A stretch of DNA of 64,000 nt, from contig NZ_CANLNH010000012.1 in assembly GCF_947492535.1 (NCBI RefSeq), positions 1-64,000 of the forward strand, given 5' to 3'. The notes below the pieces were generated by a model that was not told the DNA's origin, did no database searches, and worked only from the letters and a program-made list of their open reading frames with translations. Origin of the DNA: an uncultured Dokdonia sp. Lineage in GTDB: Bacteria > Bacteroidota > Bacteroidia > Flavobacteriales > Flavobacteriaceae. This document shows, one piece after another, positions 41,082 through 58,659 of the stretch. The translations under genes and the position numbers were made by a program. Position 1 is the first letter of the stretch. The number at the start of each line of letters is the position of its first letter.

Positions 41082-41744
41082 TTGAAAACGCTAACTAAGT
41101 ATTGGTTTTTAGAAGAATTTAATCTCTTCAGAAAATTAGGCATTGTCACGATGATGTCCATTTGTGAAATTCTGGAAATGGATTATATTAATAAAGGTTC
41201 AGTTATTAACCTCCAAAGTGTAGACAAAAAATGTATTTTCTTCCTAAAAAAAGGGGTTGTAAAAATTGTAGACAAGAATACACATACGGTAAAATATGTG
41301 GCAAAACGCGGTAATATATTTGGAGAACTTTCCTTATATGATGAAGAAATGGCGTCTGAAGAAGTTGCATATGCACTTGAAGACTGTGTGATTTGTTATA
41401 TAGAATCAGAACGAATGGAAGCACTAATGCAAAAACACAAATCACTTAAAAATGGTGTTTTGAAGATATATGGCACACGTATAAAACGCTTAGAACGCAA
41501 ATTACACGATCTTTTATATAAGGATAGTCATGTAAGAATTAAAGAGTTTATAGCAGACTATGTAAGTGAGTTCGGGACTCCAAATGAAGAAGGAAATCTA
41601 GTGGCAAAAAACCTACTCACCCATAAAGATATTGCTGGACTTACCAATACATCACGACAAACGGTAAGTAATGTATTGAGTTCAATGCGTAAAGATGGAG
41701 ATATTCAATATGACACAAAATTTATTACTAAACTTGAAAAATAA
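41082..41744 (+). CDS. Crp/Fnr-family transcriptional regulator
   Basis: A 220-residue regulator with an N-terminal cyclic-nucleotide-binding-type fold (KKCIFFLKKGVVKIVDK, GNIFGELSLYDEE). A C-terminal Crp-type helix-turn-helix (LTHKDIAGLTNTSRQTVSNVLSSMRKDG) follows. The start appears to be TTG, as no ATG lies before the conserved region. No clustered cysteines of Fnr type are seen. It is on the same strand as the Rieske operon a few kilobases downstream and could control it, but this is untested. Confidence 0.88.
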   Translation: MKTLTKYWFLEEFNLFRKLGIVTMMSICEILEMDYINKGSVINLQSVDKKCIFFLKKGVVKIVDKNTHTVKYVAKRGNIFGELSLYDEEMASEEVAYALEDCVICYIESERMEALMQKHKSLKNGVLKIYGTRIKRLERKLHDLLYKDSHVRIKEFIADYVSEFGTPNEEGNLVAKNLLTHKDIAGLTNTSRQTVSNVLSSMRKDGDIQYDTKFITKLEK

Positions 41745-42367: not shown

Positions 42368-45300
42368 ATGAACTCTAAAAACCATATTTACAAAGTATTC
42401 TTTGTTCTTATACTTTGTATAACATCGTATTCGTATGGACAAGAAAAAGAAGTCTCTATATACATTACCGGAAACACAAATACAACAGAAGGAATAAATA
42501 CGTTACGCACTATTATTGAAGATGCACCTGAAGATTCTAAACTACTTTTATTAGGAAATGCAACTCCCGAAACTGGATTTAATGACAATGCAACTTCTAT
42601 AGTAGATGATCAACTTAATATTGTTTCTTCTTTAAAAAAGAATGTCATCTTTACATCTGGACATAATGAATGGGAATATAATGGTTACAAAGGAGTAAAG
42701 GCTTTTGAAAAGTACATCCAAAAAAACAGCGATGCTAAATTTTATCCAGACAAAGGATGCCCTATCAAAAAAACAAACCTTACTGATAATGCAATCCTTA
42801 TCACTATAGACTCTCAATGGTATCTTGAAGATTGGGACAAACAGACCTATCTCAATGAAGATTGCGATATCAAAAATAGAAATGATTTCTTTTTAGAGTT
42901 TGAAAGCATCTTAAAAAAAGCGCAAACTAAGACAAAAATCATTGCCATTCATCACCCTATGTTATCCTTATCTAAAACGAGTTTTTTTGCAAGAACGGGA
43001 GGGTTTTCTCAGGAAGATTTTCAACATACACAATATAGAAGCTTACGTAATAGACTTCTCACCATAGCACAAGAAAACGAAAAAATAGTATTTGTATCAG
43101 GTAGTGACAAGAATCTACAATACATAAATGATTTTGGAGTTCCACAAATTATAAGTGGAGCAGCTGGTGATACGAAAGGAGTACAAAAAGCAGCTAAAGG
43201 AAGTAATGATTTCACTTCAAGTGAAAAAGGATACGCACGTCTTGATATACATTCGGATGGTAGCTTATCTGTACATTTCAAAAATAAAAATAGCGTACTA
43301 TTTACGACAACACTTTTTGAAGATACAAAACAGACAAACACTATCTCTTTCGAACCTAAAGACTCCTACCCAGAAACCAAAAAATCTGCTGTGTATGCTA
43401 GTGAAGAAACTGAGAAAAGCAAACTCTACAAAGGGCTTTGGGGAAAACGCTATCGCGAATTTTATAGTAAAGAAGTTGAAGCTCCCGTTGCATTTATAGA
43501 CACCCTACTAGGAGGACTTACTCCTGTAAGACGCGGTGGTGGACACCAATCTAAATCACTACGACTAGAAGACAAGGATGGTAAGCAATATGTGATGCGT
43601 GCCTTACGTAAAAGTGCCACCAAGTTCTTACAAGCAACTGCTTTTAAAGAAACCTATGTAGAAGAAGAGCTTGAAGGCAGTTTTGCAGATCGTTTTGTGT
43701 TAGATTTTTATACCGCAGCACACCCGTACACTGCTACAACAATAGGAGATTTGGCAGATGCTGCAAAGGTATATCATACCAATCCTAATTTATATTACAT
43801 TCCTAAACAAGAAGCTTTAGGAGAATACAATGATGAATATGGTGACGAATTATATTTACTAGAAGAACGTGTAGAATCTGGACATAAAGATGCCAAAAGC
43901 TTTGGATATCCTGAAGATATTGTAAGTACGGCAGACGTACTTCAAGAAATTCATAAAAATGGCAAATCTGCTGTAGATGAGCCTTCTTATATCAGAGCCC
44001 GTTTATTTGATATGCTTATTGGAGATTGGGATCGACATGAAGATCAATGGAGATGGGCCGTATATAAAGAAAATGGCAAAAAAATATACAAACCTATTCC
44101 TAGAGATAGAGATCAAGCCTTCTCTGTATTTGATGGAAGTATTTTTGGATTTTTACGTGTAGCAGTACCTGCTTTACGAATGATGCAATCTTTTGACGAC
44201 GAACTCAAAAGTCCAAGATGGTTTAGCTTTGAACCCTACCCTTTAGACGAATCATTTATTAATACATCAGATTGGGCAGCTTGGGAAAAAGAAGCTAAAT
44301 ATATTCAAGATAACGTTACAGACGATGTCATTGCAAAAGCCTTTGAAAATCTACCTGAAGAAATGAAGGGAGAAACTATAGAAGAAATCAAATCAAAATT
44401 AAAAGGAAGACGTGGCAATATCTTAACTATTGCAAAATCATATTTTGACTATGTAAATAAGCATGCTGTATTAATTGGAACTCAAAAAAGTGATGTTTTT
44501 AATATAGAAAGACTTCCTAATGGGCAAACACGCGTGGAGATTATGCGTAAAGACAACGGTCTTTTTGAACGAACCTATAATGCATCAGAAACAAAAGAAA
44601 TTTGGATATACGGTCTCGAAGGGAAAGACACATTTAATGTTACAGGAGAAGGAAATGATCTTATTAAGATTAAAGTAATCGGTGGTAAGAAAAATGACAC
44701 CTATGATTTTAAAAACACTAAAAAGGTTAAGATATACGATTATAAAAATAAAGAGAATACTATCGTTAATAAACGATCAAAAAAATGGCTAGTAGATGAT
44801 TATGAAATCAATAATTATGATTACAAAAAAAGAAAAGAAAACGTAAATCAATTCCTGCCTATTATTGGAGCTAATCCTGATGACGGTCTTAGAATAGGGT
44901 TTACAAATACATTTACCACGCATGGTTTACAAAGCAATCCGTTTACAACAAAACACATTATAGCTGCTTCTTTTTATTCAGGAAACTCAGGGTATGACGT
45001 GAGTTATCAAGGAGAATTTGCAAACATATTTCACAATTGGAACTTTGGTATCCAATTTAAATACAACAGTCCTAATTTTGCTCAAAATTTCTTTGGATTT
45101 GGTAATGACACAACATATGATAGAGACGAAGTAGAGTTAGATTTTAACCGGGTACGTATACGTCAATTACGAGGTGCTGTATCTTTAATAAGAAGAGGAA
45201 ACAATGGAGGATACTTCGAAATCAAACCCCTCATAGAATCTTTTGAAGTAGAAAACACCGCAGAGCGTTTTATTGTTACAGAAAATATAGGAGGTGTAAA

Positions 45301-45913
45301 CGCTCTTACTTTTGAAAATCAAACCTATGCAGGAGGTGAAGTCTCTTATGGTTTTAAAAATAAAGACAATGTTGCTTTCCCTACCTATGGTCTAGACACA
45401 GAAATCACTGCTGGGTATAAAGCAAATATTGACGGAGGAAATAGTGACAATAAATTTGGGTATGTAGAATCTCATTTTGCGTTTGATTATAAGATTTCTA
45501 AAAGTGGCAACTTAGTCTTTGCTACAAAAATAGGAGGCGAAGCCATTCTTGGTGATAATTTTGAATTCTTCCACGGAGCTACTTTAGGAGGTAATCATAG
45601 TTTACGAGGATTTAGAAATGAGCGCTTTATTGGAAAGTATGCTTTTTATCAAAACACAGATCTACGATTAAAACTAGGAAAATTCAAAAGCAGCTTCATT
45701 CCTTTAAACTACGGTATTACAGGTGGATTTGATTACGGAAGAGTATGGGAAGGTAACGAAGCCTCTGCTATCATTAATGAATCTAACACCCTAAATACAA
45801 GTGTTGGAGGATCTTTCTGGATCAGTGGACTTGACGCATTTACAGCAAATGTAGGCTATTATGGAAGTAATGATGGCGGACGTGCGGTATTCGTACTCGG
45901 ATTTGCATTTTAA
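42368..45913 (+). CDS. Outer-membrane protein: phosphoesterase-like, secretory-kinase-like and barrel domains fused
   Basis: An 1181-residue protein with a signal peptide ending YSYGQ. Residues 28-310 resemble a calcineurin-like phosphoesterase, but the usual metal ligands look altered (LLLLGNATPETG, TSGHNEWEYNG, SGSDKNLQYI in place of GD, GNHD and GHDH), while IAIHHPML is kept. Residues about 380-700 show the marks of a secretory protein kinase of FAM20/CotH type. These are a glycine-rich GGGHQSKSLRL, lysine in YVMRALRK, catalytic-loop-like LIGDWDRHEDQWRW and metal-loop-like PIPRDRDQAF. From about residue 830 strands of a BamA/surface-antigen-type barrel follow, ending VFVLGFAF. Only 36 bases separate it from the Rieske operon. 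Confidence 0.75.
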   Translation: MNSKNHIYKVFFVLILCITSYSYGQEKEVSIYITGNTNTTEGINTLRTIIEDAPEDSKLLLLGNATPETGFNDNATSIVDDQLNIVSSLKKNVIFTSGHNEWEYNGYKGVKAFEKYIQKNSDAKFYPDKGCPIKKTNLTDNAILITIDSQWYLEDWDKQTYLNEDCDIKNRNDFFLEFESILKKAQTKTKIIAIHHPMLSLSKTSFFARTGGFSQEDFQHTQYRSLRNRLLTIAQENEKIVFVSGSDKNLQYINDFGVPQIISGAAGDTKGVQKAAKGSNDFTSSEKGYARLDIHSDGSLSVHFKNKNSVLFTTTLFEDTKQTNTISFEPKDSYPETKKSAVYASEETEKSKLYKGLWGKRYREFYSKEVEAPVAFIDTLLGGLTPVRRGGGHQSKSLRLEDKDGKQYVMRALRKSATKFLQATAFKETYVEEELEGSFADRFVLDFYTAAHPYTATTIGDLADAAKVYHTNPNLYYIPKQEALGEYNDEYGDELYLLEERVESGHKDAKSFGYPEDIVSTADVLQEIHKNGKSAVDEPSYIRARLFDMLIGDWDRHEDQWRWAVYKENGKKIYKPIPRDRDQAFSVFDGSIFGFLRVAVPALRMMQSFDDELKSPRWFSFEPYPLDESFINTSDWAAWEKEAKYIQDNVTDDVIAKAFENLPEEMKGETIEEIKSKLKGRRGNILTIAKSYFDYVNKHAVLIGTQKSDVFNIERLPNGQTRVEIMRKDNGLFERTYNASETKEIWIYGLEGKDTFNVTGEGNDLIKIKVIGGKKNDTYDFKNTKKVKIYDYKNKENTIVNKRSKKWLVDDYEINNYDYKKRKENVNQFLPIIGANPDDGLRIGFTNTFTTHGLQSNPFTTKHIIAASFYSGNSGYDVSYQGEFANIFHNWNFGIQFKYNSPNFAQNFFGFGNDTTYDRDEVELDFNRVRIRQLRGAVSLIRRGNNGGYFEIKPLIESFEVENTAERFIVTENIGGVNALTFENQTYAGGEVSYGFKNKDNVAFPTYGLDTEITAGYKANIDGGNSDNKFGYVESHFAFDYKISKSGNLVFATKIGGEAILGDNFEFFHGATLGGNHSLRGFRNERFIGKYAFYQNTDLRLKLGKFKSSFIPLNYGITGGFDYGRVWEGNEASAIINESNTLNTSVGGSFWISGLDAFTANVGYYGSNDGGRAVFVLGFAF

Positions 45914-45949
45914 AAACATATTTAACGAATAACAATAGTAGTAAGACCT

Positions 45950-47557
45950 ATGAAAAAACCAATTTCAATTGCAAAAGTATCCCAATTAAAAAATAAAGAG
46001 CCTGAGCATGCGCTCGTAAACGGACTCGATTTAGTGATTGTAAAATTTGATGATGATATTTCAGTACTATACGGTCGTTGTCTACACAGAGGCGCCTTAA
46101 TGTCTGATGGATATGTAGATGGACATAACCTCATCTGCGGTGTTCATGGCTGGGATTATCGTGTAGATTCGGGAGTGTCAGAATATAATAACAAAGAGGT
46201 TTTACATAAATTCTCCACAAAAATTGAAGGAGATGATTTACTTGTAGATGAATTTGAAATAGATACCTACCTAGTAAATCATCCGCAACCTTTTAACCGT
46301 GATCAATACTTAGGCGCTTATGCAGACACGCATCCTGAAGAAACCGAACCGTATACCAACTATATAAAAGAACTGGCTCAAAATGGATTGAAAAATATTG
46401 GGCATCACGGGTTTTCTGCATCCATGGGTGTCGATAGAAATACCCTTCCAAAATGGAATGACATTCAGTTTTTACCAGCGCAATTGGCATCACGTCCTTT
46501 GCTGGATGAAGATGCGGTTGCGACCAAAGTCGTGATTGGTAAAAAAGCAAAAAAACCACTGCATTTAGACATCCCATTGTTTGTAAGTGATATGAGTTTT
46601 GGCGCTTTATCACGTGAAGCAAAAATTGCGTTATCCAAAGGGGCTGAACTTGCAGGCACAGGAATTTGTTCTGGAGAAGGAGGTATGCTTCCTGAAGAGC
46701 AAGCCAATAATTCTAAATATTTTTATGAACTCGCTTCCGCGAAATTTGGATTTACCTGGGACAAGCTAGATAACGTCCAGGCATTTCACTTTAAAGGTGG
46801 TCAAGGAGCAAAAACAGGAACAGGAGGTCATCTTCCAGGCGCCAAAGTAAGTAAAGAAATTGCAGAAGTACGTGGTCTTAATGAAGGCGAAACAGCTATT
46901 TCTCCAGCAACTTTTCCAGATTTTCATGGCGTAGAAGATTTTAAAGCCTTTGCTGCCGAAGTAAGAGAACGTACAGGGGGAATTCCTATTGGTTTTAAAC
47001 TCGCTGCCAGTCATATAGAAAAAGACATTCAGTTTGCACTTGATGTAGGGGTAGATTATATCATACTTGATGGTCGCGGTGGCGGGACAGGATCTGCACC
47101 AACTATCTTAAGAGATCATATCAATGTCCCTACGATACCTGCTTTGGCTAGAGCCCGAAAATACTTAGATAAAGTAGGTGCTACCGATGTGACATTAATC
47201 ATTACAGGAGGATTGCGCGTTGCCGAAGATTTCGCGAAAGCGTTAATGTTAGGAGCAGATGCAATAGCCGTATCCAACTCGGCATTACAAGCCATAGGAT
47301 GCTTAGGAATGCGTGCCTGTGGGAGTAATAACTGTCCTGTTGGAATTGCCACTCAAAAAGAGTCCTTACGGAGTCGTTTAATTATTGATAGTTCTGCCAA
47401 ACAACTACATAATTACTTTGATGCTACAAACAACTTGATCAAAGTAGTCGCAAGAGCATGCGGATATGATGATATCAGCAAATTTAATCACGACGATCTA
47501 TCCACATTTAACAAAGATATGCACAAACTAACAGGAATCAACTATGCCGGAATATAA
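45950..47557 (+). CDS. Rieske domain fused to glutamate-synthase-like FMN/3Fe-4S domain
   Basis: A 535-residue protein. Residues 1-105 are a Rieske [2Fe-2S] domain (GRCLHRGALMSDG and ICGVHGWDY, the CxH and CxxH pairs). From about residue 150 it follows the FMN-binding domain of glutamate synthase: GHHGFSASMG, IPLFVSDMSFGALS, FKGGQGAKTGTGGHLPG and DYIILDGRGGGTGSAP. The 3Fe-4S ligands are kept in CLGMRACGSNNCPVGIATQ (C-X5-C-X4-C). The glutaminase and C-terminal helix domains are absent, so ammonia is not supplied from glutamine. The palindrome encodes FAKA. It is the first gene of the Rieske operon. Confidence 0.88.
   Translation: MKKPISIAKVSQLKNKEPEHALVNGLDLVIVKFDDDISVLYGRCLHRGALMSDGYVDGHNLICGVHGWDYRVDSGVSEYNNKEVLHKFSTKIEGDDLLVDEFEIDTYLVNHPQPFNRDQYLGAYADTHPEETEPYTNYIKELAQNGLKNIGHHGFSASMGVDRNTLPKWNDIQFLPAQLASRPLLDEDAVATKVVIGKKAKKPLHLDIPLFVSDMSFGALSREAKIALSKGAELAGTGICSGEGGMLPEEQANNSKYFYELASAKFGFTWDKLDNVQAFHFKGGQGAKTGTGGHLPGAKVSKEIAEVRGLNEGETAISPATFPDFHGVEDFKAFAAEVRERTGGIPIGFKLAASHIEKDIQFALDVGVDYIILDGRGGGTGSAPTILRDHINVPTIPALARARKYLDKVGATDVTLIITGGLRVAEDFAKALMLGADAIAVSNSALQAIGCLGMRACGSNNCPVGIATQKESLRSRLIIDSSAKQLHNYFDATNNLIKVVARACGYDDISKFNHDDLSTFNKDMHKLTGINYAGI
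47230..47242. repeat. Partial iterated palindrome (inside the glutamate-synthase-like gene)
   Basis: TTTCGCGAAAGCG: right arm complete, left arm degraded to GAT. Read as Phe-Ala-Lys-Ala. Confidence 0.8.
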
Positions 47558-48302
47558 ATCAATGAAAGATCAATTACATCTTGCGTCGCAGTATTTAGCT
47601 GCCGCAAACATGAGTTTTTTAGAGAAAAAAGCAGATGATAGTCATACCAATGTTGGTTTTGATTTAAAAACCAAGCGCATGGAAACTTATGACTTATCGC
47701 CTTCTGGAGATCGATTATCATTAAATTATAGAACATTTTCTTTAGAATGGGTATCTCAAAATAATATCGATTCGCTTTCGCTTGATGGAAAAACACATGG
47801 AGAAGTGCTTAAATGGTTACAAGAACAATCCCAAACACATCTTGCTAAAAAATATAGTTATGAATTTCATTATGAGTTACCATATACTATAGCTAGCGAC
47901 TATCAATTTAAACGTACAGACATTAGTCAACTAGAGCATTTATGCAACTTAAGAATTCTTGCAGAATACACCTTAGAAAGTATTGTTGAAACAAATCATT
48001 TGGATTCACCTATACGTATATGGCCACATCATTTTGATACAGGAGCCTATGCTCCATTAGGAGATACAGGCATTTCTGTTGGCATAGGAATGGCCATCCC
48101 AGATACACTTTCTGATGTGCATTATTTTTATATCAGCGGGTATAAAGATGGGAAAGCAATTCTTCCTTCTTCTCAAAGTGATTTGCGTCTTGGAAAATGG
48201 ATGCAAGAAGGTTTTACGGGTGCTATACTCCCAGTTACAAATCTAGTAGAATCTGAAGCGATTCAGTTTTTTCAAGAAACTATAGATCAGTATAAGAACT
48301 AA
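47544..48302 (+). CDS. Conserved hypothetical protein with WPHHFD motif
   Basis: A 252-residue soluble protein overlapping the preceding gene by 14 bases; ATG 47562 would avoid the overlap. It carries RIWPHHFDTGAYAPLGDTG, whose paired histidines and aspartate could bind a metal, and a late KWMQEGFTGAILPV segment. The WPHHFD motif reminds me of DUF5996-type proteins, with low certainty. Tight coupling to the Rieske-FMN gene suggests a shared pathway. Confidence 0.7.
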   Translation: MPEYKSMKDQLHLASQYLAAANMSFLEKKADDSHTNVGFDLKTKRMETYDLSPSGDRLSLNYRTFSLEWVSQNNIDSLSLDGKTHGEVLKWLQEQSQTHLAKKYSYEFHYELPYTIASDYQFKRTDISQLEHLCNLRILAEYTLESIVETNHLDSPIRIWPHHFDTGAYAPLGDTGISVGIGMAIPDTLSDVHYFYISGYKDGKAILPSSQSDLRLGKWMQEGFTGAILPVTNLVESEAIQFFQETIDQYKN

Positions 48303-48316
48303 AATATACACACATC

Positions 48317-48709
48317 ATGGACAACTGGTATATCCCTATCACAATTATTCCTGGGATAGGATTATTAATCCTATCGACCTCCAATTTAATGGTCACATTA
48401 TCTACAGAGATCAACACCCTTATCCATAACACCGACGAAAATGATGTGATTATTAATAGAAAGCTAATTCAATTAAAACTATTAAATAGAGCGATGGTGC
48501 TCTTTTATATTGCTATTTCTTGCCTCGTAACCGCAGCACTTATTGGAGGGATTAGTTTAAAACTAGCTATAGAAACAACACTCGCATTATATGTTATTAT
48601 TCTAGGTATTATCATGCTACTTTTCGGACTCTTCTGGCTTATTAAATATTCCTATAGAGCAGTAAGCATACGACAAGATCAATTCAAAATAAAATTCAAT
48701 AAAAAATAA
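48317..48709 (+). CDS. DUF2721-like membrane protein
   Basis: A 130-residue protein with three predicted helices (IIPGIGLLILSTSNLMVTL, AMVLFYIAISCLVTAALIGG and LYVIILGIIMLLFGLFWLI). The layout, with a basic ISIRQDQF-like cytosolic tail, fits DUF2721. It sits 14 bases after the previous gene and five before the Rieske-ThDP gene. Function unknown. Confidence 0.7.
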   Translation: MDNWYIPITIIPGIGLLILSTSNLMVTLSTEINTLIHNTDENDVIINRKLIQLKLLNRAMVLFYIAISCLVTAALIGGISLKLAIETTLALYVIILGIIMLLFGLFWLIKYSYRAVSIRQDQFKIKFNKK

Positions 48710-48714
48710 CACGC

Positions 48715-50664
48715 ATGGCTACAACTAAAAAATGGTATAAAGTTCTCGAAAACAAAAACGTATTACCCGAAGGGCGTGTCCAAACAGTAACCGCTGGTCA
48801 TCAGGGAGTTTGTTTGACACATTATGACGGGAAGTTTTCTGCTTTAGATAATAAATGCCCCCATCAAGGAGGACCGCTTGGAGAAGGATCTATTGAAAAT
48901 GGGATGTTACGTTGTCCATGGCATGGTTGGGATTTTCATCCTTGTACAGGATTACCTCCAGGAGGTTATGACGATGGGATAAAAACATTTGAAGTAAAAG
49001 AAGAAGGTGATGTCATTTTTGTAGCCGTTGAAGAAGAAGACACACACCAAGACACCATCTCTGATGTGATGATAGAAACTATGATCAATTGGGGTGTAGA
49101 TACTGGTTTTGGTATGGTAGGTCATTCTAATCTTGGTGTAGCCGATGCCATGATGCGACAAGAAGAAAAAGGGAAATTTCAATTCTTTGGAATTCGTCAT
49201 GAAGGTGCCGCTGCTTTTGCAGCCTCTGCTTATGGAAAACTAATGGGCAAACCTGCTGTTTGTTTCGGAATTGCAGGTCCTGGTGCTACTAATATGTTTA
49301 CCGGAATGTGGGATGCCAAAGTAGACCGCGCTCCCCTATTTGCCATTTCTGGACAAATTAACACACAAGTGTTAGGCACAGGCGCTTTTCAGGAAGTAGA
49401 CCTTGTAGGTGCTTTCCAAACCGTAGCGCATTTCAACCATAGTGTACAACAAAACTCTCAACATAGCGAGTTAATGAGTCTTGCTATAAAAAGCGCCTTG
49501 CTAAATAGAGATGTATCACATATCACCTTCCCAGATGAAGTAGCTTTTATGCCAAAACCCGAAGGTGAAGAAGCACAAACTCCAGAGGGTAGAATCACAC
49601 CTATGAATATTTCGCCGCCAAGGCAAATGGTAGCAAAGGCTGTAACCATGCTCGCTGCTTCAAAAAAACCTGCGATCATTGTAGGTCATGGAGCGCGTTT
49701 TCATATGGAAGCCATTACCGCTTTCGCGAAAGCGTTACACTGCCCAGTCATTACTACATTTAAAGGAAAAGGTCTTATTGCCGACTCACACGAATTAGGA
49801 TGTGGGGTATTAGGAAGAAGTGGGACTCCGATTGCTTCTTGGTTTATGAATGAAAGTGATTTATTACTCGTATTTGGAGCTTCATTCTCTAACCATACAG
49901 GAATCACTCCTAAAAAACCAATCATTCAAGTAGATTATGACCCAACTGCCTTAAGTAAATTCCATAAGGTAGATGCGGCCCTTTGGGGAGAAATCTCTGA
50001 AACACTTACCATACTTGAAGAAGAAACTAAAGGAAAATTAAATACTCTAGACAGACGTCCAGAAATCGCCGAACGTTGGGCAATCTGGAGAGAAGAAAAA
50101 ACAAGTCGATTAAAAGATGAAAGCGAAATAGGACTAAGTTCTATTGCCGTATTTGATGCGATGAACCAAGTCGTTCCTGATGACGCTGTCATTGCCGTAG
50201 ATGTAGGAAACAACACCTATTCTTTTGGACGTTATTTTGAACCTACAAATCAATCTGTTTTAATGTCTGGATATCTAGGGTCTATAGGATTCTCTCTACC
50301 TGCAGCTATGGGTGCATGGGCAGCACAAGGAAAAGAAAGACCTATTTGGTCTATCTCTGGAGATGGAGGTTTTGGTCAATATCTTGGTGAGATGATGACC
50401 CTTGTTAAGTACAATATGAATATCAAACACGTACTCCTTAACAACTCAGAATTAGGTAAAATTTCTAAAGAGCAGAAAGCAGCAGAATTAGATGTTTGGA
50501 AAACATCACTACACAATGTGAGCTTTGCCAAATATGCTGAAAACTGTGGTGCTTTAGGAATTAGAGTGACCAAAAGAGAAGAACTACTTCCTGCACTAGA
50601 AAAACTGAAAGCACATAAGGGACCTGCTTTATTAGAAATCATTACAGATCCAAGTTTAATATAA
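48715..50664 (+). CDS. Rieske domain fused to a thiamine-diphosphate enzyme (acetolactate synthase/pyruvate oxidase-like)
   Basis: A 649-residue cytosolic protein. Residues 1-105 are a Rieske domain (NKCPHQGGPLGEG and CPWHGWDF). The remaining 540 residues follow the three-domain ThDP enzyme plan. The activating glutamate is in FFGIRHEGAAAFAASAYG, the central domain starts near KKPAIIVGHGARF, and the cofactor motif is SGDGGFGQYLGEMMTLV with LLNN following. Such enzymes act on 2-oxo acids; the fused iron-sulfur domain suggests that electrons from substrate oxidation leave through the Rieske centre. The palindrome encodes TAFAKA in the middle domain. Substrate unknown. Confidence 0.88.
   Translation: MATTKKWYKVLENKNVLPEGRVQTVTAGHQGVCLTHYDGKFSALDNKCPHQGGPLGEGSIENGMLRCPWHGWDFHPCTGLPPGGYDDGIKTFEVKEEGDVIFVAVEEEDTHQDTISDVMIETMINWGVDTGFGMVGHSNLGVADAMMRQEEKGKFQFFGIRHEGAAAFAASAYGKLMGKPAVCFGIAGPGATNMFTGMWDAKVDRAPLFAISGQINTQVLGTGAFQEVDLVGAFQTVAHFNHSVQQNSQHSELMSLAIKSALLNRDVSHITFPDEVAFMPKPEGEEAQTPEGRITPMNISPPRQMVAKAVTMLAASKKPAIIVGHGARFHMEAITAFAKALHCPVITTFKGKGLIADSHELGCGVLGRSGTPIASWFMNESDLLLVFGASFSNHTGITPKKPIIQVDYDPTALSKFHKVDAALWGEISETLTILEEETKGKLNTLDRRPEIAERWAIWREEKTSRLKDESEIGLSSIAVFDAMNQVVPDDAVIAVDVGNNTYSFGRYFEPTNQSVLMSGYLGSIGFSLPAAMGAWAAQGKERPIWSISGDGGFGQYLGEMMTLVKYNMNIKHVLLNNSELGKISKEQKAAELDVWKTSLHNVSFAKYAENCGALGIRVTKREELLPALEKLKAHKGPALLEIITDPSLI
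49730..49743. repeat. Iterated palindrome copy (inside the Rieske-ThDP gene)
   Basis: Perfect core with matching outer C/G, read as Ala-Phe-Ala-Lys-Ala. Confidence 0.95.
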
Positions 50665-50668
50665 AAAT

Positions 50669-50887
50669 ATGGAGACATTCGTTCAGATTATTCCAACCAT
50701 CATTCTGATCTATCTAGCCATAGGCCTCGTATTTGGAATTTACTTTTTTATACGCGGAGCTGCACAGATAGACGAGCTTATTAAGGACAGTAAATGGATC
50801 GTACGCCTTTTACTCATACCTGGTGCTATAGGGCTTTGGCCTCTTTTGCTATTAAAAATATTAAACCCTTCAAAAACAAACCTATGA
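50669..50887 (+). CDS. Small membrane protein of the Rieske operon
   Basis: A 72-residue protein with two helices (IIPTIILIYLAIGLVFGIYFF and LLLIPGAIGLWPLLLLKIL). It starts four bases after the ThDP gene, and its stop overlaps the next start as ATGA. No family recognised; perhaps a subunit or anchor for the redox proteins. Confidence 0.7.
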   Translation: METFVQIIPTIILIYLAIGLVFGIYFFIRGAAQIDELIKDSKWIVRLLLIPGAIGLWPLLLLKILNPSKTNL

Positions 50888-51303
50888 CTTCAGGATTACG
50901 AAAAGCCCATAAGGTGATTTGGATGGTGTTAGGCATCTTAGGAGTTGTGCTCATTATAGCATCCATCAACAGTGTAAAAGAACCATTAGGCATCGATAGT
51001 GACACCTCTATTTCTTCAACAAAAAAGAACGTTCGTACTATTGAGGAAAATGCGCAGTTGTCTGTAAATGTAGAAGAACTAGCGAATATCAACAAACTAC
51101 ATATTGTCATAAAAAAACCTCTAAAAAGTGCTGCGACGGGCGTCTATGTACTAACGAATGATCAAGAAAGAGGTGCTTTTTTAGGAAGCATAGACAACAA
51201 AGGGTTGTATACGTTTACTATTGAAAAAACAGCAAAAAAAATTCAATTGTACGATGGAATAAAAAAGAGTGTCATCCGTAATATCGATCTATCATGGGAG
51301 TAA
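50884..51303 (+). CDS. Single-pass membrane-anchored small protein of the Rieske operon
   Basis: The track starts in another gene at 50794; the true start is ATG 50884 (MTSGLRKAHKVIWMVLG), overlapping the previous stop. The 139-residue product has one N-terminal helix and a short periplasmic beta domain (KLHIVIKKPLKSAATGVYVL, ERGAFLGSIDNKGLYTF). It overlaps the next gene by ten bases. No cofactor ligands are visible. Function unknown. Confidence 0.7.
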   Translation: MTSGLRKAHKVIWMVLGILGVVLIIASINSVKEPLGIDSDTSISSTKKNVRTIEENAQLSVNVEELANINKLHIVIKKPLKSAATGVYVLTNDQERGAFLGSIDNKGLYTFTIEKTAKKIQLYDGIKKSVIRNIDLSWE

Positions 51304-52325
51304 ATTATCAACCTGTGCTTTGGAATAAGCATAAGAAAACATATGACAAATGGATTGCAATAGGGATGCTTCTATACCTCATCAGTTTTATAGGAATCAC
51401 CATTATCACCAATGGAGAAACAAGCCCTGAAACACTTATCATTAGAGCTTTTGGAACCTTAGCTATTATTTTATTACATATCATATTATGCATTGGCCCT
51501 TTGGTTAGGTTAAACCCTAGATTATTACCTATCTTATACAACAGAAGGCATTTAGGCGTAAGCATGTTTATTGCCGCACTAATTCATGGCGGATTCTCGC
51601 TCTTTCAATTTCATGCGCTAGGGAATGTAAATCCTATATATGCCTTATTTACGTCAAATATGGAGTATACCTCTTTGGCTAATTTTCCTTTTCAAGTATT
51701 AGGCTTTTTTGCGCTGGTTATTTTATTTCTAATGGCTGCGACTAGTCATGATTTTTGGCTTAAAAACCTCTCTCCAAAAACATGGAAGCGATTACATATG
51801 CTCGTGTATGTAGCATACATCTTAATTATTCTTCACGTATTTTTAGGCGCATTTCAACAACAACCATCTATCGCTGTGATTGCCTTTTTAGGAGTAGGGT
51901 TCTTAACAATCTCCTCTTTACACATCACCACTGCTTTTAAAGAAGCTAAGACAGATAATATCAAAACAACACAAAAAGAAGAAGGTTGGGAATATGTATG
52001 TGAAATAGATGAAATATCTGAAAACAGAGCAAAGATTTTTGTAGTAGGAAGTGAGCGTGTTGCTATTTTTAAATACGATCATAAACTATCTGCAATTTCA
52101 AATGTATGTAAACACCAAGGAGGCCCTTTAGGAGAAGGCAAAATTGTAGACGGTTGTATTACGTGCCCCTGGCATGGATATCAGTATTTACCTCATAACG
52201 GGCAATCCCCTCCTCCGTTTACAGAGAAAGTAGCTACCTATCGTATAAAAAATAAGAATAATAGCATCTATATACTTCCAGAAGCAATGGCCGAAGGAAC
52301 CGAAATAGAACCTGTCACATTTTAA
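51294..52325 (+). CDS. Ferric-reductase-like haem membrane domain fused to a Rieske domain
   Basis: A 343-residue protein. The first 225 residues hold six or so helices with histidines suited to two haem b groups (LLHIILCIGPL, ALIHGGFSLF, RLHMLVYVAYILIILHVFLG), as in ferric reductase or MsrQ-type domains. Residues 230-343 are a Rieske domain (SNVCKHQGGPLGEG, CPWHGYQYLPHNG) very like that of the ThDP fusion. It should carry electrons across or into the membrane and exchange them through the cytosolic Rieske domain. Orientation is inferred. Confidence 0.88.
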   Translation: MGVNYQPVLWNKHKKTYDKWIAIGMLLYLISFIGITIITNGETSPETLIIRAFGTLAIILLHIILCIGPLVRLNPRLLPILYNRRHLGVSMFIAALIHGGFSLFQFHALGNVNPIYALFTSNMEYTSLANFPFQVLGFFALVILFLMAATSHDFWLKNLSPKTWKRLHMLVYVAYILIILHVFLGAFQQQPSIAVIAFLGVGFLTISSLHITTAFKEAKTDNIKTTQKEEGWEYVCEIDEISENRAKIFVVGSERVAIFKYDHKLSAISNVCKHQGGPLGEGKIVDGCITCPWHGYQYLPHNGQSPPPFTEKVATYRIKNKNNSIYILPEAMAEGTEIEPVTF

Positions 52326-52334
52326 TCAAACATT

Positions 52335-53129
52335 ATGAAAGAAGAAGACGATTTTTATATTGGGTATCTAGATACGGTATCTCCCAAAACAAAAAAAGGA
52401 ATCAAATCATTTGTGCTCTTTGGAATATTGTTATTAGTAGGCGGTGCGCTCCTATTTGCCTTTACTCAAAACACTTTTAAAAATAGCACCTTTGAACTAA
52501 CAACAAGCACAAAAATAACAGGGGTTTATCATGAAATGCCCTACCCTATGTTACGTGTGCAAACTGATGAAAATGTATACAAGAACATCTTATTATTAGG
52601 GTTTGGGAAATCAAGTGCTAATCCTTTTTTACAAAAAATAAGAAACGAAGCTGGTCCATTATCAGGTAGCGTATTAAGTATCGAAGGAAACCTCATCTAC
52701 TACAATGGAAAAACACTTATACAAATTACAAGTGACGAAAAAATCACATTGGTAGAAAAAGCAAATCCAAATCGACTTCCTAAAACAGAACAACTTATTT
52801 CAGGAATGGAGCTACAAGGAGAAATTATTGATCCAAAATGTTATTTTGGCGTGATGAAACCTGGTAAAGGAAAGATACATAGAAGTTGTGCTACCTTATG
52901 TATTTCAGGAGGAATTCCACCTGTATTGGCAACTACAGATAAAAACAATATCGCTGAATATTATTTACTCACAGATACAGATGGCAATCCCATAAACGAG
53001 CAAATATTACCTTATATAGGCAAACCATCTATACTCACAGGAAACGTAGTAAAAATGCAAGATTGGTATCAACTGCGTATCAAGACAGAAGATATACATG
53101 ACCTTGATTTGCCTTCAAAAATATATTAA
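52335..53129 (+). CDS. Membrane-anchored protein with DPKCYFGVMKPG...HRSCATLCISGGIPP motif
   Basis: A 264-residue protein with one N-terminal helix (FVLFGILLLVGGALLFAF) and a periplasmic domain. The striking segment IIDPKCYFGVMKPGKGKIHR and then SCATLCISGGIPPVL contains three cysteines and a histidine that could bind a metal or haem or form a disulfide. I recall this motif from uncharacterised proteins beside haem or molybdenum oxidoreductases, without firm assignment. It ends the operon; a palindrome copy follows at once. Confidence 0.75.
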   Translation: MKEEDDFYIGYLDTVSPKTKKGIKSFVLFGILLLVGGALLFAFTQNTFKNSTFELTTSTKITGVYHEMPYPMLRVQTDENVYKNILLLGFGKSSANPFLQKIRNEAGPLSGSVLSIEGNLIYYNGKTLIQITSDEKITLVEKANPNRLPKTEQLISGMELQGEIIDPKCYFGVMKPGKGKIHRSCATLCISGGIPPVLATTDKNNIAEYYLLTDTDGNPINEQILPYIGKPSILTGNVVKMQDWYQLRIKTEDIHDLDLPSKIY

Positions 53130-53134
53130 TGCTT

Positions 53135-53158
53135 AGTACGCTTTCGCGAAAGCGTACT
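53135..53158. repeat. Extended perfect 24-bp palindrome after the Rieske operon
   Basis: The 14-base core with AGTAC/GTACT arms forms a perfect 24-base palindrome six bases after the last stop of the operon. It could form a strong hairpin, but no T-run follows. Confidence 0.95.
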
Positions 53159-53180
53159 ACGGCACAAAAACAGCAAAGCC

Positions 53181-54422
53181 ATGTTCGAATCTTTTAGTAT
53201 CATCTTTACCATTGCCGTTTTATTTAATTATATAAACAGTAAATGGATAAAGCTCCCATCCACTATAGGGTTATTACTGTTGAGTTTAGTGTTAGTAATT
53301 ATAATCACGATAAGTGAGTCTGTCGTTCCTACTTTCTATAAATTTTTCTGTGATATTATTGTTAATGCAGATTTTAAAACATTGCTACTAGATGGGATCT
53401 TGAGTTTTATGTTATTTGCGGGAGCATTACACGTGGATTTTGGTGCTCTGGCTGAGCAAAAAAAATCGGTGCTCTTGTTTGCAACTATTGGTGTCCTTAT
53501 CTCTACGTTTATTGTTGGAGGACTTGTTTTTGGAGTTGCTATGTTAATAGGATTAGAGCTTCCATTTATTCATGCCTTATTATTTGGTGCTTTGATCTCT
53601 CCTACAGATCCTATTGCGGTGATGGCGATCTTAAAAAAAGCGAATATTGCCGAGAGTTTAGGGATCAAAATAGAAGGAGAATCTTTATTTAATGATGGTA
53701 TTGGTGTGGTTGTATTTTCTGGAATTTTATTAATTGCGACCGCTACAGGCGAGCATAGTCAATCTGAAATTGGTGCAGAAATCGGGACATTATTCCTTGA
53801 AGAAGCTGTGGGTGGTCTCTTCTTTGGCTTACTCATAGGGTTTATAGGCTTAAAGCTAATACAGAGTTTAAAAGACAATTCAAACTTAGCTGTTATGATT
53901 AGCCTAGCCGTAGTGATGGGAGGATATACCATAGCGTCTATGATTCATGTTTCAGGACCTCTTGCTATGGTCGTAGCAGGATTACTTATAGGAAACAAGA
54001 TACACATCAATGAAAATAAAAATAAGTTACAAATGTCTCTTAATGAGTTCTGGGAAATTCTGGATGATGTCTTTAACGGGATTTTATTTGTATTGATAGG
54101 ATTAGCTATACATTTGTTAGCATTTAATATCAACTATTTAATCCTTGGTATAATTACAATTATTATCGTATTATTAGCAAGATTTATTTCTGTATTTGTC
54201 CCGTACTCTTTATTAAAACATGAAGAAGAAAAACCGATAAAGACAATTGCTATTTTAACATGGGGTGGTTTACGAGGCGGAATTTCGATTGCGCTTGCGT
54301 TAAGCCTTCATGAGTCTTTATCTAGTGAATTAATTGTATACATCACCTATGTCGTTGTTTTATTTTCTATCATTGGTCAAGGATTGAGTATTGGTACACT
54401 TGCAAAAAAATTATATAGTTAG
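53181..54422 (+). CDS. CPA1-family Na+/H+ antiporter
   Basis: A 413-residue inner-membrane antiporter with 12 or so helices. Hallmarks are [17 protein letters not shown] (the ion-binding region), [20 protein letters not shown] with the essential ND pair, and [16 protein letters not shown] near the C-terminus. It lacks a long cytosolic tail. The next gene's ATG follows directly on its stop codon, so the DUF6268-like protein and the Pycsar-type protein are probably co-transcribed. Confidence 0.94.
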
Positions 54423-55322
54423 ATGCATATGCTAAAAAAAATAAGAATAATAACATGCTTACTCCTTATAATTACAGGTGTCTCACAAGCTCAAATTTCA
54501 GAATTAGCACGTTTAGAATACGTAGGGCTACCTGAAAGAGCAGAAAATACCGGCACCTCTTTCAATAGGTTTAGAGGAGCTGCAAATTACCCTATAAAAC
54601 TTAAAGAGGATACCTATTTTGTTATTGGAGCTGATTATAGTTATATAGATTTTAATGTAGATCAAGATCTTGTTGGATTTAATTCGGACAGATTAGATAG
54701 GTTTCAATTATTAGACATTAACTTAGGATATACAACCAAAATTAATAAAGATTGGCGTATTGCAGTTCAGATACAACCTGGTTTTAGCACCAATGCAACC
54801 GTAAAAGAGCTATCATTGAGAGATAATGGACTTATCTCTGGAGGTCTATTTTTTTTAAATGATAAGAAAAAAGAAAAAATACCTCACCAACTCATTTTAG
54901 GAATTTCAGTTTCTGGTACTGGAGGTTTTCCAGTGTTACCATTTATAAGTTACTATCGTAAGTTTCATCCAAAATGGTCTTATAAGGTAGGGGTTCCAAA
55001 AATGAATATTCAATACCATATATCTACAAAAAATAGATTAAAATTTGTAGTGAGACTTGATGGTTTTAGAACTAATTTACAAAGAGATGTTTTTGTAGAG
55101 GGAGAAAGTGGACCACAAAAAGTAGATTTTTTAAGACAACGATTAGTTTTAGGAGGACTTCGTTATGAATATAAGTTTACAAAAAATCTAGAATATTATA
55201 TGAATGTGAGTTATGTAATTGATAATTCTTTAGAGTTTAGAGATCGTAGTAGAAATACCCTCTTAGAATTACCTGAAGACAATATTTTTTATTTAAAAAC
55301 AGGTATCCGATTTAAGCTATAG
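54423..55322 (+). CDS. DUF6268-like outer-membrane protein
   Basis: A 299-residue protein with a signal peptide (CLLLIITGVSQAQ) and a beta-barrel-like body. Typical features are EYVGLPERAENTGTSFNRFR after the cleavage site and an aromatic C-terminal strand (FYLKTGIRFKL). The start may be the third codon ATG. It abuts the antiporter gene (TAGATG) and is four bases from the next gene. Function unknown; probably an outer-membrane channel or structural barrel. Confidence 0.7.
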   Translation: MHMLKKIRIITCLLLIITGVSQAQISELARLEYVGLPERAENTGTSFNRFRGAANYPIKLKEDTYFVIGADYSYIDFNVDQDLVGFNSDRLDRFQLLDINLGYTTKINKDWRIAVQIQPGFSTNATVKELSLRDNGLISGGLFFLNDKKKEKIPHQLILGISVSGTGGFPVLPFISYYRKFHPKWSYKVGVPKMNIQYHISTKNRLKFVVRLDGFRTNLQRDVFVEGESGPQKVDFLRQRLVLGGLRYEYKFTKNLEYYMNVSYVIDNSLEFRDRSRNTLLELPEDNIFYLKTGIRFKL

Positions 55323-55326
55323 TCTT

Positions 55327-55962
55327 ATGGAAGCATCAAAAAAAGAAATCGAAAAAGAAAAAGACAAATTCTTAATGTCTGATCTTAATATCAACAAAGA
55401 GGAGCTAAAATCTCTTAAGAAAAAACTCTCCAAAATTGAACCTAGACCTGAAAAAGGAGTGGAAACATTATTTAGGTTGCTCTCAAAAAATCAATATACG
55501 TTGAATGCTATGATTGATCGAAAATCAAATATCTTGATTTCTATCAATGCCCTTATTTTATCTATTGTTTTAGGAACTGTACTAGATCAATTAGATAGAG
55601 ATCCGCATTTGATTTATCCTGCCATCTTAATCTTAATGACCAATCTTGTATCTATAGGATATGCAGTAATTGCAACCAGACCCGAAAAGAAACATGGAAG
55701 CAGAAGTACCAACAATCTTATGTTTTATGGTAACTTCCATGATATGGAAGAAGAAGCCTACGTCAATCAGATTTCAGATTTAATGAATCAAGGTGACGAA
55801 CTTTATAAGACGATTGCCAAAGACACGTATTACTTAGGAAAAACAATTAATAAGAAGTTTAAGCTCCTACGATCTTCCTTTACCATCTTTCTTATTGGAA
55901 TTATTCTGTCTGTCATTGCATTCTTATTATGTCACTTGCTATTTGGAGGCTATTTTGGATAA
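55327..55962 (+). CDS. Pycsar effector-type transmembrane protein (DUF5706-like), orphan
   Basis: A 211-residue protein. A charged helical N-terminus leads to the diagnostic NQYTLNAMIDRKSNILISIN followed by a helix pair (ALILSIVLGTVL, PAILILMTNLVSIGYAVI). A cytosolic loop with FYGNFHDMEEEAYVNQI comes next, then a last helix (FTIFLIGIILSVIAFLLCHLL). This matches PycTM, the membrane effector of Pycsar cyclic-pyrimidine defence. No pyrimidine cyclase gene is visible in the window, and it is set among transport genes. Either it is an orphan effector or the family has a second, housekeeping role. Confidence 0.75.
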   Translation: MEASKKEIEKEKDKFLMSDLNINKEELKSLKKKLSKIEPRPEKGVETLFRLLSKNQYTLNAMIDRKSNILISINALILSIVLGTVLDQLDRDPHLIYPAILILMTNLVSIGYAVIATRPEKKHGSRSTNNLMFYGNFHDMEEEAYVNQISDLMNQGDELYKTIAKDTYYLGKTINKKFKLLRSSFTIFLIGIILSVIAFLLCHLLFGGYFG

Positions 55963-56018
55963 GAACTGTTTTATAGAATAGTTGACATACGGGATCTTTT
56001 TCCGTAGCTTTATTCCCA

Positions 56019-57461
56019 ATGAATACATTTCCACTTTCTAAGAAAATAGGGTTTCTAGCAGGACCATTATTGTGCATTCTAATATTACTCTTACCCTTTG
56101 ATATTGTAAATCCCGCCATAGATCGTGTGATTGCTATCGCCATTTGGATGGTTGTATGGTGGATTACTGAAGCAGTATCTATTTCTGTAACGGCACTCAT
56201 TCCACTGGCGCTATTCCCATTGTTAGGCATTGGAGATATTAAAAGTGTTGCGAGCAATTATGCAAATCCTATTGTGTATTTATTTTTTGGAGGTTTTGTG
56301 ATCGCGCTTGCCTTAGAAAAAGTACAACTACATAAACGCATTGCGCTTTCTATTCTTAAGATTACGGGTACCAAGGCTAATGGAATTGTCTTAGGATTTA
56401 TGATTGCTACTGCTTTAATGAGTATGTGGATCTCTAACACAGCAAGTACTGTCGTCATGCTTCCTATCGCCGTTTCTGTCATCCAATTACTCATGAATGA
56501 TGCAGATGGCTTTACTAAAAACGACAAGAATTTTGCCCTTTCTATCATGTTAGGGATTGCTTTTGCTGCGAATATTGGAGGGATGTCTACTTTAATTGGA
56601 ACACCGCCTAACTCTGTAATGCTTGCCTTTTTAAATGATAGTTATAATATTGATATCGGGTTTTTTCAATGGATGCAAATGGGCGTTCCTTTTGCTATTT
56701 TGATGTTAGCCATTACCTATTTCTGTATTACGCGTATTTTCTTCCCCAATCGACTTGGGAATATAGGTGGTTCGGGTGCTATTATTCAAACAGAACTCAA
56801 TAAGCTTGGAAAAATGAGTCGTGGAGAAAAGATTGTATTAATCATTTTCTTATGTACTGCCGTTGCATGGATGTTACGTAGTTACCTCAACACATTACTC
56901 CCAAGCATCACACTTACCGACACGACGATAAGTGTGATTGCAGCACTTGCCATGTTTATTATTCCTTTAGATCTAAAAAAAGGTGAATTCCCTTTAGATT
57001 GGAAAGACACTTCGCGTTTACCATGGGGAATTTTAATTCTATTTGGTGGTGGTCTTGCCCTAGCATCTGGTTTAAAAGATGCTGGGTTTATTGCGATGAT
57101 AGGTGATTATATCTCAGGTCAAACCGATTGGAGCATGTGGGTCGTGACTGCGGTACTGATCTTTTTAATGTTATTTATGACAGAATTAATGAGTAATGTC
57201 GCCTTGGTAACGATACTTATTCCTTTGGTTGTTGGGATTGCACTTGGTATGGATGTTCCCATTTTACAAATGGTCATTCCTGTGACCTTAGCTTCAAGTT
57301 GTGCCTTTATGCTTCCTATGGCGACACCACCCAATGCCATTGTTTTTGCAAGCGGTCATGTGCGTGTGAGTCAAATGGCACGTATTGGGATTGTACTGAA
57401 TCTAATTTCTGTAGGATTACTCTTTGCGATTGCGTATTGGATTGTACCGTTATTGTTTTAA
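56019..57461 (+). CDS. DASS/SLC13-family sodium:dicarboxylate symporter
   Basis: A 480-residue inner-membrane transporter. Both SNT-type motifs are visible (MWISNTASTVVMLPIA and, later, MATPPNAIVFASGHV). The family's helix-3 region reads WWITEAVSISVTALIPLALFPLLGI. It should take up C4-dicarboxylates, citrate, sulfate or phosphate with sodium; dicarboxylates are most likely. The sodium coupling fits the nearby Na+/H+ antiporter. Confidence 0.92.
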   Translation: MNTFPLSKKIGFLAGPLLCILILLLPFDIVNPAIDRVIAIAIWMVVWWITEAVSISVTALIPLALFPLLGIGDIKSVASNYANPIVYLFFGGFVIALALEKVQLHKRIALSILKITGTKANGIVLGFMIATALMSMWISNTASTVVMLPIAVSVIQLLMNDADGFTKNDKNFALSIMLGIAFAANIGGMSTLIGTPPNSVMLAFLNDSYNIDIGFFQWMQMGVPFAILMLAITYFCITRIFFPNRLGNIGGSGAIIQTELNKLGKMSRGEKIVLIIFLCTAVAWMLRSYLNTLLPSITLTDTTISVIAALAMFIIPLDLKKGEFPLDWKDTSRLPWGILILFGGGLALASGLKDAGFIAMIGDYISGQTDWSMWVVTAVLIFLMLFMTELMSNVALVTILIPLVVGIALGMDVPILQMVIPVTLASSCAFMLPMATPPNAIVFASGHVRVSQMARIGIVLNLISVGLLFAIAYWIVPLLF

Positions 57462-57471
57462 AAATAAGAAA

Positions 57472-58659
57472 ATGATTAGACAGGTACTCTTAGCATTTAT
57501 TCCCATTAGATATTGGATTGCATTAATTTTTGCTATCATATTAATAAGTGTAGGAGGAGAATATATTCATCTTGCAAAAATCATAGGAAATGTTTTACTA
57601 ATAATCATTAGTGTAAAGTTTGCTATTCTTTTACATGAAATAGGACATTTACTTTTCGCCAAACTCGTTGGAGGTACACCTAGAAGAATGGTCCTTGGTA
57701 AAAAACATAAAATAGTCCAAACTACAATCGCAGGAATCAAAATAGTGTTACACTCAGACTTTAATTCTGGACTTGCCTATACTGCTTTCGACAACCTTAA
57801 GCATATTCGTTTAAAATTACTGCTCTTTTATTCAGGAGGATTCATAGTAAATTTTATTATAGCTGGTTGTCTCTATTTCTTATTTGGTTTTCATATTGAT
57901 CTATCAAACGCTATCTATCCTATATCTGCATTTGGAATTGCTAATCTTTTTGTAGGAGTTATAGCACTTATCCCATACAGATCTACATACAATGGATTAA
58001 AAATAACTTCAGATGGTCTTTCAATACTAAAAATTCCATCTTATAAAAAAGAAGACTTACTCAATCTTATTTATATTAATGAACTTTTAGATGCATATGA
58101 CTGCATGGAAGAAAAAAAATATAAAAAAGCGATCACTCTTTATGAAAATTATAAACATAAAGTAGATGATATAGATCTCATAAATATTAATCTAAGTATC
58201 GCATATCTCAAGTTAGGTGATTTTGAAAAGTCAACATCTATTATGGAAACATTTCTTCCTATAGATGAGAATGCATCTAGTCATTATAAAAGCTATATTT
58301 ATAATGGTCTTGCTTGGAATTACCTGCTTCTTAATAAAATAGAAGAAGCTGACACATATTCAGATATCGCACATAAATCTAATTACCAAGAAAAAAATAT
58401 AAAAGCAACTAGAGGATCTGTACTTATAGAAAAAGGTAATTTTAAAAAAGGAAAAGAGTTTCTTATAGAAGAAGTAGATTTTAAATACCCTAATAATCAT
58501 ACACTTTCTGCAGCCATGTATTTAGAAGTTGCATTTTTAAAACTAGGGGAATATAAGAAATCAAAAAAATACAGTGCGTTTGTAAAAAAGAATATACACC
58601 TATTAGATATTGATGAAAAAATGCTTTATGATCGATTACAAGAAAAGATTACATCTTAA
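57472..58659 (+). CDS. M50-like site-2 protease domain fused to TPR repeats
   Basis: The true start is ATG 57472; the track's extra residues lie inside the transporter gene. The 395-residue protein has HEIGH in ILLHEIGHLLFAKLVGG near residue 50. The third metal ligand is less typical: PYRSTYNGLKITSDG replaces the usual NPxxDG. Residues about 210-395 form TPR-like helical repeats (KKAITLYENYKHKVDDIDLI, NINLSIAYLKLGDFEKSTSI). It may be a membrane protease that recognises partners by the TPR arm. No substrate is suggested by context. Confidence 0.82.
   Translation: MIRQVLLAFIPIRYWIALIFAIILISVGGEYIHLAKIIGNVLLIIISVKFAILLHEIGHLLFAKLVGGTPRRMVLGKKHKIVQTTIAGIKIVLHSDFNSGLAYTAFDNLKHIRLKLLLFYSGGFIVNFIIAGCLYFLFGFHIDLSNAIYPISAFGIANLFVGVIALIPYRSTYNGLKITSDGLSILKIPSYKKEDLLNLIYINELLDAYDCMEEKKYKKAITLYENYKHKVDDIDLININLSIAYLKLGDFEKSTSIMETFLPIDENASSHYKSYIYNGLAWNYLLLNKIEEADTYSDIAHKSNYQEKNIKATRGSVLIEKGNFKKGKEFLIEEVDFKYPNNHTLSAAMYLEVAFLKLGEYKKSKKYSAFVKKNIHLLDIDEKMLYDRLQEKITS

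Follow-up and report, generated by a model that had tools for sequence, protein, structure and literature searches.

The electrons of ThDP oxidases are known to go to O2, to quinones or to separate ferredoxins, and in enzymes of the pyruvate oxidase (POX) type the ThDP site sits between two subunits. In the 2-oxoacid:ferredoxin oxidoreductases (PFOR/OFOR), which are ThDP enzymes as well, iron-sulfur clusters receive the electrons; these oxidoreductases belong to another ThDP subfamily, carry [4Fe-4S] clusters and are CoA-dependent. Rieske ferredoxins normally serve as electron donors for oxygenases, and a Rieske centre of the ferredoxin kind has a potential near -150 mV. The passage of PMC3174974 that deals with type 5 CISD proteins describes them as a tandem CDGSH module fused to the FMN domain of glutamate synthase. 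In membrane cytochromes, NOX carries a C-terminal FAD/NADPH reductase, while MsrQ uses the flavin reductase Fre (PMC5676040).

The locus described here lies in the window, the whole stretch of 64,000 nucleotides that we analysed. All genes from 42368 to 58659 point the same way, each overlapping the next or lying a short gap from it, and the following features belong to this run or its surroundings.

41082..41744, plus strand: Crp/Fnr-family regulator, upstream of the operon
42368..45913, plus strand: Omp85-family outer-membrane protein, 1181 aa, first gene of the co-directional run
45950..47557, plus strand: protein with a Rieske domain and an FMN glutamate-synthase (GOGAT) core (Pfam, motif alignment)
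47544..48302, plus strand: uncharacterised protein, 252 aa, recurring in the cluster
48317..48709, plus strand: small membrane protein; it matches DUF2721 weakly, below the gathering score
48715..50664, plus strand: Rieske-ThDP fusion enzyme, 649 aa
48715..49029, plus strand: Rieske [2Fe-2S] domain of the fusion, residues 1-105, with ligands C48, H50, C67 and H70
49051..50661, plus strand: ThDP core of the fusion, residues 113-649, with PYR, central and PP domains
50794..51303, plus strand: hypothetical protein, 169 aa, 5' of the cytochrome gene and overlapping its start
51294..52325, plus strand: Ferric_reduct/MsrQ-like b-type cytochrome with a C-terminal Rieske domain (Pfam/NCBIfam)
52335..53129, plus strand: membrane-anchored OB-fold protein with one helix and two predicted OB-like barrels
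53181..54422, plus strand: CPA1-type Na+/H+ exchanger family protein, recurring in the cluster
55327-55962: PycTM (Pycsar effector-type) domain protein, 211 aa

The fusion gene starts with ATG five bases after the preceding gene and runs through 649 codons without interruption. Pfam places the Rieske domain (PF00355) at residues 6-79 (E 4e-16) and TPP_enzyme_N, TPP_enzyme_M and TPP_enzyme_C at 114-231, 306-432 and 496-642, all above gathering scores. A linker of about nine residues connects the Rieske domain to the three-domain ThDP enzyme. The cluster ligands lie in CPHQ (48-51) and CPWH (67-70), in the CxH...CxxH arrangement, and the N-terminal domain is complete, as the sequence-only reading had held. 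The same reading was right that the activating Glu in RHEG (E163; motif at 161-164) and the cofactor motif GDG...NN (549-551 and 576-577) are kept; FQE (225-227) and GHGA (324-327) are further core motifs. Its central claim, a Rieske domain tethered covalently to a ThDP enzyme from the superfamily of POX and acetohydroxyacid/acetolactate synthase (AHAS), is borne out by the Pfam domains and by the occurrence of the same fusion in independent assemblies. With the reading frame open throughout, full-length fusions in independent assemblies and the ligands kept, we rule out a chance fusion, a frameshift and a mis-assembly.

Scanning genome_contigs, we found at least 80 fusion loci, nearly all with alignments that span the entire query (66-93% identity); most come from Bacteroidota, and those listed include two from Shewanella and one from a Pyrinomonadaceae MAG. 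Full-length orthologues (51-93% identical) occur in Bacteroidota, Pseudomonadota, an Acidobacteriota MAG, plasmids of Halobacteria and a Mycobacteroides plasmid. They include fusions from Halorubrum, Salinirubellus, Halorarius and Haloferax plasmids (56-58% identity), from the Mycobacteroides abscessus plasmid (51%) and from four more genomes of the Shewanella phylum (55-58%). The next ThDP relatives are unfused and only about 30% identical. The distribution is patchy, the fusion being present in only 8 of 297 Bacteroidota-wide genomes. The haloarchaeal copies (L107-L110) lie on plasmids in stress-island-like surroundings, near merA, arsenic-resistance, DsrE, rhodanese and sulfite-exporter-family genes.

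The ligand pattern CPH...CPWHG is found in all 120 fused copies examined (98 without loci that were fetched twice), from bacteria to Halobacteria and Mycobacteroides. Because the ligands are invariant across bacteria and archaea, the cluster of the fusion is very likely functional, and a degenerate Rieske domain serving as a scaffold only is ruled out. The Rieske domain is conserved to a similar degree as the catalytic domains (62% mean pairwise identity vs 60-70%), and its divergence matches that of the ThDP core (r 0.78). In a tree of 38 Rieske domains, those of the ThDP, GOGAT and cytochrome proteins form one group each, with support of 68/45, 100/100 and 81/77, respectively. As support is good for the GOGAT group only, a single origin of the Rieske-ThDP fusion is consistent with the data, short of proof.

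By sequence comparison and predicted fold, the ThDP core is nearest to the pyruvate oxidases, namely that of Lactobacillus plantarum (LpPOX) and E. coli PoxB. Pyruvate oxidase is the top NCBIfam match of the core, below the family cut-off: the fusion scores 388 bits against 742 for PRK08611 and 302 against 638 for spxB. It has the three ThDP domains with the activating Glu and the Mg/ThDP motif, as expected of a POX. For AHAS, the score is 289 bits against a cut-off of 538 (TIGR00118, NCBIfam), and no gene for a regulatory ACT subunit of AHAS was detected by Pfam or NCBIfam among the products at 45950-55962. An AF2 model of the fusion (pLDDT 87, pTM 0.82), which is a monomer built with 44 sequences, brought LpPOX and PoxB to the head of a PDB fold search, with target TM-scores of 0.76-0.85; its segment 216-228, which holds FQE, has a pLDDT below 50. 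Since POX comes first by scores and fold and the AHAS cut-off is missed, we rejected an acetolactate synthase identity. Of the earlier label "acetolactate synthase/pyruvate oxidase-like", the second half therefore stands, by profile, sequence and fold, and the first is dropped.

The fused family has residues of its own. Comparing 21 diverse fused proteins with five unfused comparators, we observed that H137, N139, G164, most of SFSNHTGI (390-397), Y502, Q555-Y556 and K582 are invariant in the former and absent from the latter. POX has a second Glu at the position of G164. In alignments with LpPOX variants, the Trp of F479W falls on K582 and the Ala of V265A on S369, so two positions lining POX cofactor sites are altered in the fused proteins. 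With an invariant Lys in the position of LpPOX F479, beside the ThDP site, the chemistry of the fused enzyme may differ from that of POX. At the putative FAD site, the GxGA phosphate loop is kept and the region 365-397 (GRSGT, GASFSNHTGI) is family-specific, so that FAD could be absent or another nucleotide could take its place. In alignment, the fused proteins terminate right after TPP_C, and PoxB-type relatives extend about 45 residues more. Gene context gives no lead to the substrate, as the antiporter, GOGAT and stress genes name none.

Our main reading, to which we assign a probability of roughly one half, is that of a POX-type 2-oxoacid oxidoreductase whose electrons exit via the tethered Rieske domain to partner proteins. 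A 2-oxo acid, pyruvate or a relative, would be decarboxylated on ThDP, and two electrons would go to a flavin in the central domain. The flavin would then reduce the N-terminal Rieske cluster, one electron at a time, and the cluster would pass them to the partner redox proteins encoded alongside. The most constant candidate partner would be the Rieske (or CDGSH) GOGAT-type flavoprotein; where a membrane branch is present, it would comprise the Rieske-cytochrome b and its OB-fold partner. The tethered Rieske domain would thus take the place of the quinone exit that PoxB reaches via a C-terminal membrane segment. Catalysis, FAD binding, the direction of electron flow and the choice of partner are what we infer for the fused enzyme.

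The same core could also work with its electrons bypassing the Rieske domain, which would then be a redox or oxygen sensor, or a structural module, gating a non-oxidative ThDP carboligase or decarboxylase. Many near-fold ThDP relatives are indeed non-oxidative (AHAS, 2-hydroxyacyl-CoA lyases, glyoxylate carboligase), and K582 replaces the Phe of POX. The company of merA, arsenic-resistance, DsrE and rhodanese genes in haloarchaea is that of a stress gene, and a Crp/Fnr-family protein, which from its position is a possible regulator of the operon, is encoded upstream in the window. However, the nearest profiles and folds are those of oxidative POX enzymes, and the adjoining Rieske proteins have oxidoreductase cores, which favours electron traffic over sensing. 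We regard such gating as rather unlikely.

The sequence-only reading had overlooked the neighbours and considered the tethered Rieske centre as an acceptor built into the fusion protein. The operon encodes two further Rieske fusion proteins, so an acceptor serving the fusion protein alone is probably too narrow a reading. Among the 54 fusion loci with full 9-kb flanks, the GOGAT-Rieske gene is present in 41, the antiporter in 38, and the Rieske cytochrome and the OB protein in 21 each, every partner gene being on the same strand as the fusion. The pattern extends to an Acidobacteriota MAG and proteobacterial genomes, and GOGAT and the exchanger also occur in Halorarius. The divergence between pairs of ThDP cores correlates with that of each partner (r 0.78-0.84), a correlation that species descent alone would also give. 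Of the eight fusion-bearing genomes in the set of 297 Bacteroidota, seven carry GOGAT-Rieske and five the Rieske cytochrome (Fisher 2e-6 and 7e-7, respectively, both ignoring shared ancestry).

In the first of these partners, 45950..47557, the Rieske ligands are C44, H46, C63 and H66. The GOGAT FMN domain is recognised (PF01645, E 4e-88), and C451, C457 and C462 align with the cluster cysteines of GltS (3Fe-4S motif). By Pfam, the glutaminase domain of glutamate synthase is absent and the Rieske domain stands there instead. In both fusion-bearing Shewanella genomes and on a Vibrio fortis plasmid, a tandem CDGSH [2Fe-2S] module replaces the Rieske domain on a GOGAT core that is 63-66% identical over about 131-535.

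L152:4906-6456, L153:4964-6511 and L146:5686-7236: CDGSH-GOGAT copies of Shewanella and Vibrio

That CDGSH can stand in for Rieske on the same GOGAT core suggests that the His-ligated [2Fe-2S] module is used there as an electron plug. Like 45950-47557, type 5 CISD has a His-ligated [2Fe-2S] module fronting this core, but it is described as a CDGSH class whereas the protein in the window carries Rieske (PMC3174974). Within that description of type 5 CISD, neither a Rieske version of GOGAT nor a link to a ThDP enzyme is mentioned.

The constancy of this partner raises the alternative that Rieske-GOGAT is the direct acceptor, with 2-oxo acid oxidation powering a glutamate-synthase-like reduction and the cytochrome branch being optional. 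Of 14 fusion-bearing genomes checked, 13 carry GOGAT-Rieske or GOGAT-CDGSH and nine the Rieske cytochrome; besides the 41 of 54 loci above, the retained FMN-domain and 3Fe-4S cysteine motifs agree with it. The cytochrome is missing from both fusion-bearing Shewanella genomes and from G145, G184 and G294, and hence cannot be the universal acceptor. Against a direct GOGAT route, no GOGAT-Rieske was found, at the threshold used, in the Haloferax and Mycobacteroides locus flanks examined or elsewhere on those plasmids, and many genomes have GOGAT-Rieske without the fusion, where it must have another donor. We consider this route distinctly unlikely. Full-length GOGAT-Rieske occurs in 37 of the 297 Bacteroidota-wide genomes as compared to eight for the fusion, and thus has a life of its own; being common without the fusion, it makes the ThDP enzyme look like one client, not the centre, of a wider Rieske-based system. 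At L155 and L157, the cytochrome and the OB protein adjoin GOGAT-Rieske without the ThDP fusion.

The cytochrome (51294..52325) has invariant His residues at 86, 98, 152, 168 and 181. It resembles MsrQ and bacterial NOX in its Ferric_reduct membrane core with invariant His, and differs in having a Rieske domain where NOX has the FAD/NADPH reductase (PMC5676040). No molybdopterin protein that could be an MsrP partner is present among its examined neighbours. The OB protein, which always adjoins the Rieske cytochrome, has invariant C169, M174, H182, C185 and C189 (C-x4-M-x7-H-x2-C-x3-C); searches returned no Pfam, NCBIfam or PDB sequence relative and no convincing fold match. On Rhizobium plasmids (L144:6626-9071, L145:6626-9071), small membrane proteins accompany the Rieske cytochrome and the OB protein. 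These plasmid records yielded no Rieske-ThDP gene, and a Rhizobium ThDP gene near the Rieske cytochrome, considered as an unfused version, is only 25% identical and belongs to another family.

Of the remaining neighbours, the Omp85-family gene is found again next to the cluster chiefly in loci of flavobacteria, and the PycTM protein is kept downstream of the antiporter in several flavobacteria. An anti-phage system was rejected, as PADLOC matches nothing but the separate PycTM protein. Three FG-GAP/ASPIC-UnbV repeat proteins with Por secretion tails (35101-36849, 37027-38781 and 58649-60403) flank the cluster. A promoter scan of the DNA gave matches at shuffled expectation.

A broader reading is a Rieske-linked redox system, so far undescribed, in which ThDP, GOGAT-type and cytochrome b enzymes would exchange electrons via Rieske/CDGSH plugs, ending at the OB-fold metal protein and somehow coupled to the cation/proton antiporter, in bacteria and partly in haloarchaea. 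This reading is possible and we offer it tentatively. Reverse flow, in which a partner-reduced Rieske domain would feed the flavin of the ThDP enzyme in a reductive or flavin-maintaining role, has in its favour that the solved structures closest to the Rieske domain of the fusion come from Rieske ferredoxins that serve aromatic dioxygenases (CarAc, NdoA-type), but is very unlikely, as a Rieske centre near -150 mV would hardly drive reductive 2-oxo acid chemistry and none of the products identified for the cluster in the window is an NAD(P)H-dependent ferredoxin reductase.

In the open-licence literature, we found no publication on a Rieske-ThDP fusion when Rieske was combined with pyruvate oxidase, ThDP, glutamate synthase, MsrQ or acetolactate synthase. 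Present annotations read only "thiamine pyrophosphate-binding protein", "glutamate synthase-related protein" and "Rieske 2Fe-2S domain-containing protein". The architecture is probably already listed in domain databases; what is new is therefore the recognition that it is conserved and linked, and not the sequence itself. If our main reading is true, a permanently tethered Rieske centre is an additional electron exit route for ThDP oxidases. In different phyla, and in part beyond a single domain of life, three unrelated catalytic cores with His-ligated [2Fe-2S] modules have stayed linked; the cluster is a directly testable protein set for Rieske-to-Rieske electron transfer.

Compared with the known ThDP enzymes, the fusion shares the three-domain fold of AHAS, and its segment 364-371 (GVLGRSGT) resembles an AHAS-like paralogue in the same genome. 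At position 586 it has Glu, as in POX; AHAS has Trp there. PFOR/OFOR is absent from the sequence and fold matches of the fusion shown. LpPOX (1POW, 2EZ4) is the top Foldseek match: R368 of the fused family corresponds to the LpPOX Arg before V265, and E586 to the Glu four residues after F479. LpPOX uses FAD and passes electrons directly to O2 without an iron-sulfur domain, whereas the fusion carries Rieske. E. coli PoxB (pyruvate:ubiquinone oxidoreductase; 3EY9, 3EYA) is the best sequence match (113-644, E 2e-70), with a Foldseek TM-score of 0.80-0.85 to the fusion model for the PoxB chain, and both proteins contain the activating Glu, FQE and a motif of the GDG-NN type. In the position of LpPOX F479, PoxB has Phe and the fused family an invariant Lys. 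The C-terminal segment of PoxB is reportedly, from the work on 3EY9 and 3EYA, its membrane-activation part. PoxB thus has a C-terminal membrane segment and no Rieske domain, whereas the fused family has a Rieske domain and no such segment.
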